Below the pieces are notes generated by a model. That model was not told where the DNA came from and did not search any database. It saw only the letters and a program-made list of their open reading frames with translations. The position numbers and the translations under genes are program-made. Shown piece after piece: positions 1,055 through 3,893 of a stretch of DNA of 64,000 nt. The stretch spans positions 1-64,000 of the forward strand of contig JAFDMF010000003.1 in the NCBI GenBank assembly GCA_019306065.1. The letters run 5' to 3'. Numbering within the stretch: position 1 is the first letter of the stretch; the number at the start of each line of letters is the position of its first letter. The DNA is from Deltaproteobacteria bacterium. Its GTDB lineage: Bacteria > Desulfobacterota > Desulfobacteria > Desulfobacterales > JAFDMD01.

Positions 1055-1141
1055 TTCTAACAAACAAATGCACTCGGACGTCAAAAAGCGTTGCTCCTTC
1101 GTCGCTCTGCTGTTTGCCGCTGGTGATTTGCAGCGTTATAC
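1055..1141 (+). other. attC-like recombination site upstream of the ligase gene
   Basis: The site has the layout of an integron attC. An outer core TTCTAAC (1055-1061) opens it and GTTATAC (1135-1141, GTTRRRY-like) closes it. Between them lie imperfectly paired inner arms: CAAATGCAC at 1065-1073 against GTGATTTG at 1123-1130. The left arm carries one unpaired G at 1070, the extrahelical base typical of attC hairpins. The central part (1074-1122) is only partly self-complementary. In integron biology the cassette begins just after the G of the right core, here at 1136. No integrase gene is in the window. Confidence 0.6.
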
Positions 1142-1162
1142 ATAAAAGAAAAAGATAAACAA

Positions 1163-2161
1163 ATGAAGATAGCAAAGGATGAAAAATATATTGAAATTGT
1201 AACAACAAGGATTGATAAGCTTAATTTAATGCCTGACAGAACACTTGACTTACTGCACAAAACTTTAGGCAATTATTATTCAAAAGTTGAAATATCAATT
1301 ATCAGTAGAGAGAAAGAATTACGAGAACTTGTAATAAAGAAACCAGATATAGTAATTTCGGGAATTAAATATTTAGGGTTTAATCTGGATTCAATTCAGA
1401 GAAACTCAACAAACAAAATATGGTTTTCTGATTTTTTAGATGAGCATAACATCCTCTATACAGGTTCATCTAAAAAATCTATTGAATTTGAATTTGATAA
1501 AAGCAAAGCAAAAGATATAGTTTCTAAGTACGGGTGTAATACAGCTTCTTTTTTTGTTGCAAAGCCCAATCAATATACCCAAGATGACATCCCTCTTGAT
1601 TTTCCTCTATTCATAAAACCTCTTTATGAAGGAGATTCAAGAGGGATTGATTTTAATTCTTTAGTTTTTAATTTTAAAGAATATCATAGAAAAGTATCAG
1701 CCATCCTTGAAAATCAAGGTACAGTTTCCTTAGTTGAAAAATATTTAAATGGTAAAGAATATACTGTAGCCATTTTTCAAAATTTAAAAAACAATACATA
1801 TCAAGTTTATCCAATTGAACTCTTAGCTGAAAAAAATATTGAAGGGGAAAGAATTTTGGGTTTTACAGATAAAATCGCAGATAAGGAATCGTCACTAAAA
1901 ATAGAAGATGACAATATTAAAAATAGAATATCAAAATTAGCACTAGATTCTTTTAAGGCATTAGGAGCAAAAGGATATGGAAGAATAGATATTAAAATGG
2001 ACGAGAAGGGCATTCCTTGTTTTTTAGAAGCTAATTTAATTCCTGGTTTGGGTGCTGGATATTTATATAGGTGTTATAATCTAAATACAGGACTACCATA
2101 TGAACAAATGATTTTGGATATTGTAAGAAATGCATTTGAGGCTAATACAGCGAACCGCTAA
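1163..2161 (+). CDS. D-alanine--D-alanine ligase-like ATP-grasp protein
   Basis: A 332-residue protein of the ATP-grasp superfamily, close in size to D-Ala-D-Ala ligases (300-370 residues). The N-terminal part carries a Rossmann-like preATP-grasp region. The ATP-grasp core follows, with a glycine-rich loop near residue 160 (YEGDSRGI). The C-terminal metal-binding motif FLEANLIPGLGAGY corresponds to the E-x-N-x-x-PG motif of Ddl. The substrate may be D-Ala or another amino acid; sequence alone does not decide. The start follows a purine-rich stretch. The gene stands alone between attC-like sites, and its TAA stop lies in a TAACAA context, as in integron cassettes. It is separate from any peptidoglycan cluster and was probably acquired by transfer. 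Confidence 0.75.
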   Translation: MKIAKDEKYIEIVTTRIDKLNLMPDRTLDLLHKTLGNYYSKVEISIISREKELRELVIKKPDIVISGIKYLGFNLDSIQRNSTNKIWFSDFLDEHNILYTGSSKKSIEFEFDKSKAKDIVSKYGCNTASFFVAKPNQYTQDDIPLDFPLFIKPLYEGDSRGIDFNSLVFNFKEYHRKVSAILENQGTVSLVEKYLNGKEYTVAIFQNLKNNTYQVYPIELLAEKNIEGERILGFTDKIADKESSLKIEDDNIKNRISKLALDSFKALGAKGYGRIDIKMDEKGIPCFLEANLIPGLGAGYLYRCYNLNTGLPYEQMILDIVRNAFEANTANR

Positions 2162-2222
2162 CAATGTGTATAATGTTCATACGCCACATACACGGAACGT
2201 TGAGAGGAAGGATAAAAGAAAT

Positions 2223-2293
2223 GTATAACAAATCGTTGCACCTGACATTTTTTCGCTGTCGCTCTAAAATGCAGGTGAACTTAGTCATTAGAG
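2223..2293 (+). other. attC-like recombination site downstream of the ligase gene
   Basis: The left core GTATAAC (2223-2229) is the exact reverse complement of GTTATAC at the start of this cassette (1135-1141), the relation expected between a cassette's own attC and its first bases. The inner arms CACCTGACATTTT (2240-2252) and AAAATGCAGGTG pair perfectly except for one extrahelical A at 2245. The right core is ATTAGAG (2287-2293), a one-base departure from GTTAGAG. A weaker second candidate overlaps the stop codon (about 2155-2205), but its left core does not match the cassette start. Confidence 0.62.
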
Positions 2294-2459: not shown

Positions 2460-3893
2460 ATGATTATTCCTGTAATATTAGCTGGCGGTTCGGGCAAAAG
2501 ATTATGGCCGCTGTCAAGAGCAAATTTTCCGAAACAGATAATTTCTTTTGATAAAAATCAAAAAACTTTTTTTCAAGATACGGTATTGCGATTAAAAAAA
2601 AGCGCTCCGATAGTCTTATGCAATAACAGTCAGAGATTTTTTATCAAAGAGCAGTTGGAATCAATAAATATATCCGCGGAATCTATAATTTTAGAGCCCT
2701 GTTCAAAAAACACTGCCCCTGCAATAGTCTCCGCCGCTCATAAGGCGCTTCAAATTTCAGAGGATCCTATACTTTTGGTTATGCCTTCGGATCATTTTTT
2801 TCAAAACAATGACGCCTTCTATGAAGCTGTTGCCATAGGAGAATTTTATGCTGATGCAGGTTATATAGTAGCATTAGGAAGCATTCCTACTTATCCTACA
2901 ACTGCTTTTGGTTATATTGAAAAAGGAAATACTCTTTTTGATCATATTCCATCTCTAAAATGTAGCGGGCAGGCGGCTTCCATATCCTCCTTTGTTGAAA
3001 AGCCAGATATTATTTCCGCAAAAAAATATATTAAAACGGGCAATTATTTTTGGAATTCAGGGATATTTATATTTAAGGCTTCGGTTATTAGACAGGAGTT
3101 TAATAAATTTGCGCCGCAAATCTATAATCTTACGCTTAAAGCTGTTCAAAAAGGTTATTATAATTTGGGCTTTTTTAGGATAGATAAAGATTTATATTCG
3201 CAATGTCCTAATATCTCAATAGATTATACGGTTATGGAAAAGACCGATAAAGGAGTGGTAGTAACCTTTAATTCCGTATGGAACGATATTGGAACATGGG
3301 ATAATATATGGCGTTTTGCTCAAAAAGATGAAAACGACAACGTGGCAGAAGGAGATGTAATACTTATGAATGTAAAAAATTCTTATGTACATTCCACCCG
3401 GCGTCTTATTGCAGCTTACGGAATAGAGGATATAATTGCCGTTGAAACTTCGGATGCGGTATTAATTGCAAAAAAAGAGGTTTCTCATAATATAAAAAAT
3501 ATTGTAGATCGTTTAGAGGCTTTAAACAGAGAAGAGGTGTTTTTTCATAAAAAAGTTTATAGACCATGGGGAATGTATGAAATAATCGATTCTGGCGAAA
3601 AATTTTTGGTAAAAAAAATAATCGTCAACTCCAACTCGGCTCTTTCACTGCAAAAGCATAATTGTCGAGCGGAGCATTGGACCGTAGTAAAAGGGCAAGC
3701 AGTAGCAAACCGCGGAGGGGAAGAATTTATTATAAAGGAAAACGAATCAATATATATACCTGCAAAAGTAATCCATAGTTTAAAAAACCTTCAAAAAACC
3801 TCTTTGGAAATAATAGAAATCCAGTCTGGCGAATACATAGGAGAAGATGATATTATAAGATTTGAAGATAAATACGGACGGATAACTCAATGA
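2460..3893 (+). CDS. manC: Mannose-1-phosphate guanylyltransferase / mannose-6-phosphate isomerase
   Basis: A 477-residue bifunctional enzyme (AlgA/ManC/RfbM type) that makes GDP-mannose for surface polysaccharides, converting fructose-6-P to mannose-6-P and mannose-1-P plus GTP to GDP-mannose. The nucleotidyltransferase signature GGSGKRLWPLSR is at residues 9-20, with FVEKP near 180. The type II cupin isomerase domain follows (about 360-470), with YRPWGMYEII and SLQKHNCRAEHWTVVKGQ. The length is normal for the family. The stop overlaps the start of rsmE by four bases, so the two genes are co-transcribed. No other polysaccharide gene lies next to it. Confidence 0.95.
   Translation: MIIPVILAGGSGKRLWPLSRANFPKQIISFDKNQKTFFQDTVLRLKKSAPIVLCNNSQRFFIKEQLESINISAESIILEPCSKNTAPAIVSAAHKALQISEDPILLVMPSDHFFQNNDAFYEAVAIGEFYADAGYIVALGSIPTYPTTAFGYIEKGNTLFDHIPSLKCSGQAASISSFVEKPDIISAKKYIKTGNYFWNSGIFIFKASVIRQEFNKFAPQIYNLTLKAVQKGYYNLGFFRIDKDLYSQCPNISIDYTVMEKTDKGVVVTFNSVWNDIGTWDNIWRFAQKDENDNVAEGDVILMNVKNSYVHSTRRLIAAYGIEDIIAVETSDAVLIAKKEVSHNIKNIVDRLEALNREEVFFHKKVYRPWGMYEIIDSGEKFLVKKIIVNSNSALSLQKHNCRAEHWTVVKGQAVANRGGEEFIIKENESIYIPAKVIHSLKNLQKTSLEIIEIQSGEYIGEDDIIRFEDKYGRITQ

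Follow-up and report, generated by a model that had tools for sequence, protein, structure and literature searches.

An integron gene cassette with a Ddl-family ATP-grasp ligase, probably stranded as a CALIN beside an rRNA operon

Beside an rRNA operon in the 64-kb window (the whole stretch of 64,000 nucleotides that was analysed), two attC sites enclose one gene cassette with matching cores and a foreign composition, the gene of which encodes a protein related to D-Ala-D-Ala ligases (Ddl). The cassette is absent at the same place in two genomes of the same genus, a search of the assembly for an integron integrase found none, and two other places of the genome also carry attC-bearing cassettes. 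We consider it highly probable that the locus represents an integron cassette with an accessory Ddl-family ATP-grasp ligase, which has been stranded as a cluster of attC sites lacking an integrase (CALIN) with two attC; the reading as a CALIN follows from the result that no integron integrase was found in this 93%-complete genome. The locus clearly adds one more example to a known phenomenon and is not a new kind of element.

Layout of the locus

The window begins inside a 23S rRNA gene, which lies upstream of an intact 5S rRNA gene on the forward strand (400-516; Rfam RF00001, 103.7 bits), the sole 5S match across the assembly. The terminator of the rRNA operon follows on the same strand at 517-583 and includes a perfect inverted repeat of 42 nt (527-568). 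An intergenic stretch on the forward strand (698-836) is common with one of the two congeners, G002, at the same chromosomal place, i.e. 5' of manC, and the homology ends at 836. It is followed on this strand by a GC-richer (42%) stretch without an intact ORF (837-1054), which ends at the first attC site. No intact frame was found in 837-1054, and a search of plasmids with 830-1060 returned no match; this stretch is probably the remnant of a preceding cassette.

The cassette and its surroundings are all read on the forward strand: attC1, which is complete, at 1055-1141; the coding sequence of a Ddl-like ATP-grasp ligase of 332 aa at 1163-2161; attC2 at 2223-2293; and a degenerate copy of the 3' half of the 5S gene together with the terminator at 2319-2440, which is 87% identical to 449-583 and has the left edge AAGTTAAGC. 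The cassette as a unit, delimited by core complementarity, spans 1136-2287 on the forward strand, from TTATAC through the base preceding the next TT. A gene of the mannose-1-phosphate guanylyltransferase type (manC, assigned by Pfam) starts at 2460. When the sequence was read by eye, a 34-codon ORF was also noticed: it starts at an ATG at 2221, crosses attC2, ends at a TAA inside the 5S fragment and is preceded by GGAAGG.

A covariance model recovers two attC sites

The preliminary description of this DNA had placed attC-like sites on both sides of a single gene and had called for a covariance-model search. As a test independent of that description, we built a model, R1, from 33 attC sites in integron regions of order relatives and in two plasmid integrons, with the window excluded. 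The training sites were picked by eye among the listed matches of a hand-written consensus scan in three forms, which served only to supply candidates. Of these, 33 were kept; clear but long sites (e.g. L088:4571-4696 and L101:3353-3479) were omitted, as were attC followed by GATAAGTTGACC, and the model is accordingly biased towards short, well-formed attC. In the 33 training sites 79.8% of the cells at stem pairs were paired (64.4% after shuffling), and the covariation score was 0.423 (0.170 after shuffling). The GATAAGTTGACC ending was seen in genome G051, where several different attC (L101:6048; L103:696, 7462 and 9125; L078:11930 and 15118) end in this same sequence and not in GTT; these endings possibly stem from a single type of element that entered attC at the R' box.

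With the threshold at E 10, R1 matched the 64-kb window at just two places, which are the two proposed: attC1 (45.1 bits, E 3.4e-8) and attC2 (29.5 bits, E 1.6e-4). Both show the R''/L'' and L'/R' boxes, a bulge in L'' and a single-strand hairpin. With the filters off over 560-2480 they still rank first, and the third match, a weak attC-like stretch on the forward strand over the ligase stop codon (2156-2205), scores 10.5 bits, with an E of 0.13 for the 1.9 kb searched. A fourth form of the crude consensus scan, used as a detector in the window, performed no better than chance, with 11 matches in the window and 2-15 in ten shuffles. Motif reasoning alone is insufficient here; it is the covariance model together with homology that settles the identity of the sites as attC.

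The R'' and R' boxes of attC1 are TTCTAAC (1055-1061) and an intact GTTATAC (1135-1141), so that the G^TT is present and the crossover lies between 1135 and 1136. Those of attC2 are GTATAAC (2223-2229) and ATTAGAG (2287-2293). The core complementarity noted in the preliminary description is exact, GTTATAC at 1135-1141 facing GTATAAC at 2223-2229; thus the start of the cassette is complementary to its own R'', and one gene lies in the orientation of the attC, as in a gene cassette. The preliminary description had also seen a single extrahelical base in each hairpin, which is borne out at the first site, where the bulged G1070 agrees with the model alignment, but not at the second, which folds (DNA parameters) with two bulged bases, G2238 and A2245. 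Likewise, the TAACAA noted at the stop codon is present at 2159-2164, but it is not the R'' of attC2, which starts at 2223. Since the crossover G of attC2 is replaced by A at 2287, leaving no G^TT, attC2 is probably disabled and the cassette no longer excisable through it.

Both sites have relatives on plasmids. attC1 matches plasmid sites at about 75% identity over 84-86 nt, namely four Providencia plasmid records (75.3% over 85 nt), a fifth record (74.1%) and plasmid pALTS31 (74.4%), and all three plasmid arrays inspected among these matches carry an integron integrase. Among 58 genomes (own included), eight have an attC1 match at E 0.01; the best one outside the own genome, at 90% identity, is in the order relative G056, where the site and an integrase match with one internal TAA lie about 1.1 kb apart on the same contig. 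attC2 is 83.3% identical to an attC (82151-82221) of the Synechocystis plasmid pSYSM, which is also found by R1 (31.1 bits). The similarity extends back towards the ligase stop codon, whereas the pSYSM site is preceded by an unrelated AAA ATPase gene and, unlike attC2, has retained an intact R' (GTTAAGA). In pSYSM (L090:4001-4074), a well-known cyanobacterial plasmid, the attC stands behind the ATPase gene with a cassette tail that agrees in part with the one between ligase stop codon and attC2. A phage search with the tail at 2140-2300 returned no match.

Foreign composition and distribution of the ligase gene

The ligase gene has a GC content of 29.1%, while the window as a whole has 36.3%. 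Its codon distance is 0.203; the values for eight window genes are 0.094-0.175, but four of these genes also belong to the eight-gene reference set, so that their values are biased low. The ligase gene is absent, at E 1e-10, from both searched genomes of the same genus (G001 and G002); inheritance by descent without the attC sites, which would have spoken against a cassette, was therefore not seen. A contig scan located close copies in a metagenome-assembled genome (MAG) titled Hippea sp. (L010, 83% identity) and in one titled Campylobacterota bacterium (L011, 80%). In the search that included the two congeners, matches elsewhere among the 96 genomes were at most 32% identical. A viral collection gave no relative of the ligase, and its relatives in phages and plasmids were all under 60% identity.

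Aligned with the L010 and L011 copies, the locus becomes homologous near 1136, the predicted cassette start. At this junction the alignment has CAGCG in common just before the start, followed by TTATACATA against TTA-ACATA. No attC was found beside either copy, and the ligase is therefore not always carried in a cassette. In the Hippea copy an ACG occupies the position of the start codon, and the listed ORF starts later. Elsewhere in the Campylobacterota MAG two stretches have attC matches of 27.4 and 22.7 bits. Matches resembling attC in that genome (L064:4410-4470 and L065:7805-7876) lie on contigs that also hold integrase-like fragments. The Hippea MAG contains an integron-integrase-like gene (L062; C14:32253-33195) with several stops, the best piece of which scores 240.5 bits, and which is probably a pseudogene.

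The ligase departs from canonical Ddl

The ligase has the C-terminal ATP-grasp domain of Ddl (Pfam Dala_Dala_lig_C, PF07478; 76.5 bits, cut-off 24), while the N-terminal domain PF01820, which the own Ddl of the genome has, gave no match at E 0.001. All NCBIfam models shown are below their cut-offs, the best being the D-Ala-D-Ala ligase model PRK01372 (107.2 against 243). The comparison with Van-type ligases, suggested earlier, turned out negative, as the Van models fall far under their cut-offs (VanA 27.8 bits against 775, VanG 62.3 against 495). A canonical Ddl is encoded elsewhere in the genome (C17, 187.6 bits) with its N-terminal domain, and shares 25% identity with the ligase. Solved Ddl structures are matched by the ligase only beyond about residue 69; its AlphaFold model, built from three sequences, has a mean pLDDT of 35.8 and was set aside. 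PADLOC returned nothing.

In Ddl enzymes, lysines and the RxD and ExN motifs form the ATP and metal site, and the HGxxGEDG loop and the AKY region bind D-Ala in canonical ligases. In an alignment with the own Ddl, the ligase keeps the lysines, RxD and ExN, and has no counterpart of the HGxxGEDG loop and the AKY stretch. With the ATP and metal residues retained, its reaction is probably the ATP-consuming ligation of an amino acid, or of a related carboxylate, to a partner. It is unlikely to be a housekeeping D-Ala-D-Ala ligase; given that the ATP and metal motifs are kept, that HGxxGEDG and AKY are absent and that a canonical Ddl exists elsewhere, an altered substrate is, judging from the sequence, the better guess.

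No integron integrase was found in the assembly

The preliminary description saw no integrase in the window and likened the locus to a CALIN. This holds genome-wide, as no match to the integron integrase profile TIGR02249 exceeded the cut-off in the 93%-complete draft, the best reaching 88.4 bits against 265. A complete integron, with intI and attI, is accordingly not recognised here; the locus combines two attC with no integron integrase found in a 93%-complete draft, from which an integrase may possibly have been missed. Four partial matches to TIGR02249 come from two tyrosine recombinases of about 305-310 aa, in both of which the profile positions from about 190 to 235 are unmatched. That region is specific to IntI, and we therefore take the two recombinases to be XerC and XerD. 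Of the 58 genomes (own counted), 33 have a TIGR02249 match over the cut-off; the two congeners have none.

Other cassettes and the comparison with congeners

Up to E 5, R1 found five attC in the own genome, two of which are those of the window. The others are at C26:12588-12643 (31.9 bits), C26:12162-12219 (19.2 bits, weak at E 1.26 genome-wide) and C14:95517-95603 (24.2 bits, weak at E 0.083 genome-wide). The cassette had been described as a lone one, which is true of the window locus but not of the genome, where attC-bearing cassettes occur at two more places. The search for other attC with matching cores succeeded at C26, where GTTAGAT and ATCTAAC stand around an ORF of 121 aa. That stretch (L124:3163-3644) contains two attC and two small ORFs of unknown type, of 91 and 121 aa, and the stretch on C14 (L125:3518-4288) a single attC behind a UPF0489 gene.

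At both places the synteny with G002 ends close to a predicted crossover: at L124:2852 on C26, within four bases of the crossover at 2848/2849, and at L125:3520 on C14, three bases from that at 3523/3524. At C26, AACGCTGTTAT is common to both genomes but is followed by other genes in G002, which start after the same AACGCTG^TTAT; one of them resembles, by eye, a peptidoglycan transglycosylase. G001 is uninformative, as its contig ends before the site at C26 and its homology at C14 stops at 3115. The stretches of G001 and G002 that were examined showed no attC, and neither genome as a whole gave one at E 0.05.

At the window locus G002 shares 698-836 and 2410 onward, and G001 shares 2410 onward. 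The part between, 837-2409, which includes the 5S fragment, has no syntenic match in either congener, with scattered repeat matches to the terminator arm. A clean empty site was not found at this locus, the homology of G002 ending at 836 and not at a G^TT, and the 3' flank bearing a 5S fragment that neither G001 nor G002 showed.

The left end of the 5S fragment coincides with GTTAAGC. In the intact 5S gene this sequence (451-457) fits the motif GTTRRRY, which the other top-strand GTT of the gene does not. The coincidence of the fragment's edge with GTTAAGC is suggestive, but there are 25 bases between the end of attC2 (2293) and the fragment, and no attC adjoins the fragment. The idea that such 5S fragments recur in G002 was weakened, since the 5S part alone matches nothing outside the window among 14 sources, Rfam detects no 5S in either L058 or L059 with E relaxed to 0.5, and the BLAST matches that had hinted at 5S in G002 rest mostly on the terminator.

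Discussion

If the locus is a stranded cassette, the recombination would have been carried out by an integron integrase acting in trans or since lost. The folded bottom strand of the attC would have recombined with a chromosomal secondary site of the G^TT type 3' of the rRNA operon, and attC2 would afterwards have lost its crossover G.

A variant of the CALIN reading with another history is that a once complete chromosomal integron stood here, of which the integrase and the other cassettes were deleted. We regard this as possible, though clearly the less probable course. It would agree with the presence of an integrase over the cut-off in 33 of 58 genomes and of attC matches in 26 of 30, with the ORF-less stretch and its own attC1 that precede the cassette, and with Treponema phagedenis, in which attC are reported to have persisted after intI was lost (PMC3607928); yet both congeners are without an integrase over the cut-off and without an attC match at E 0.05, and three separate places with one or two attC each resemble scattered insertions, not one decayed array. 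Far less credible is that the attC-like sequences are chance hairpins and that the ligase arrived by another route. Shuffled sequence does give as many crude-scan matches as the window, and L010 and L011 have the ligase gene without attC, but this explanation is largely refuted by the covariance-model E values of 3.4e-8 and 1.6e-4, obtained at the two predicted places only, and by the identity of about 75% over 84-86 nt to attC of integrase-bearing plasmid integrons; the residual doubt on the sites concerns their activity, not their identity.

As to the cargo, it appears unlikely that the ligase is retained for drug resistance, as a Ddl of the Van type or one giving D-cycloserine resistance. 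The precedent is ddl6/ddl7, cassette genes of an integron probably from Treponema denticola, which are reported to confer D-cycloserine resistance in E. coli (PMC7691350), and an additional ligase next to a housekeeping Ddl is the same constellation as here; against this, the ligase is only 25% identical to the own Ddl, lacks the Pfam Ddl N-terminal domain and any counterpart of HGxxGEDG and AKY, and falls far below the Van cut-offs. A bolder extension, which we think doubtful, is that a genus without an integrase repeatedly captures single cassettes at fixed chromosomal doors through an outside integrase, e.g. that of a transient plasmid, and that the ligase acts on a substrate not yet described. 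The fixed doors are suggested by two unlike insertions, the attC cassettes of the own genome and the genes of G002 without detectable attC, which begin at the same AACGCTG^TTAT. The GTTAAGC of 5S, a perfect GTTRRRY, may have served as such a door at the rRNA locus, which would explain why the 5S copy is cut just there.

On the stranded-cassette reading, cassettes enter and stay in a lineage in which no integrase is detectable. They do so at three or more chromosomal places, and comparison with congeners makes the junctions readable. The known cargo of cassettes is extended by a Ddl-superfamily ligase that is non-canonical and has close copies in the Hippea and Campylobacterota MAGs. If C26 is a recurrent entry point, it offers a natural test of cassette spread without a resident integrase.

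Comparison with known systems

IntegronFinder 2 reports CALINs from two attC upward, with an average of almost six attC each (PMC9024848). The window locus is like them in having two attC about 1.1 kb apart around one gene and no integrase found in the assembly; it differs in its single complete cassette, in one attC without the crossover G and in the adjacent rRNA operon. With ddl6/ddl7 and the ddl(GC) of T. pedis, as these are presented in PMC7691350, it shares an accessory cassette gene of the Ddl superfamily, low GC and a housekeeping Ddl in the genome. Those genes are, on the other hand, reported there as functional Ddl, and the ddl6/ddl7 integron has an intI (PMC7691350), whereas the window ligase is without the canonical substrate motifs and is 25% identical to the host Ddl. 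Secondary sites of insertion have been described with the motifs GTTRRRY and GNT (PMC10127599). The window locus differs from such insertions at secondary or attG sites in being a natural case, seen in a draft genome where no integrase was found, and for which the mechanism is deduced from the junctions only; it resembles them in that cassettes are scattered over several chromosomal places with junctions at G^TT. Cassette insertion at secondary or attG sites is reportedly also the subject of Loot et al. (2024, Nat Microbiol).
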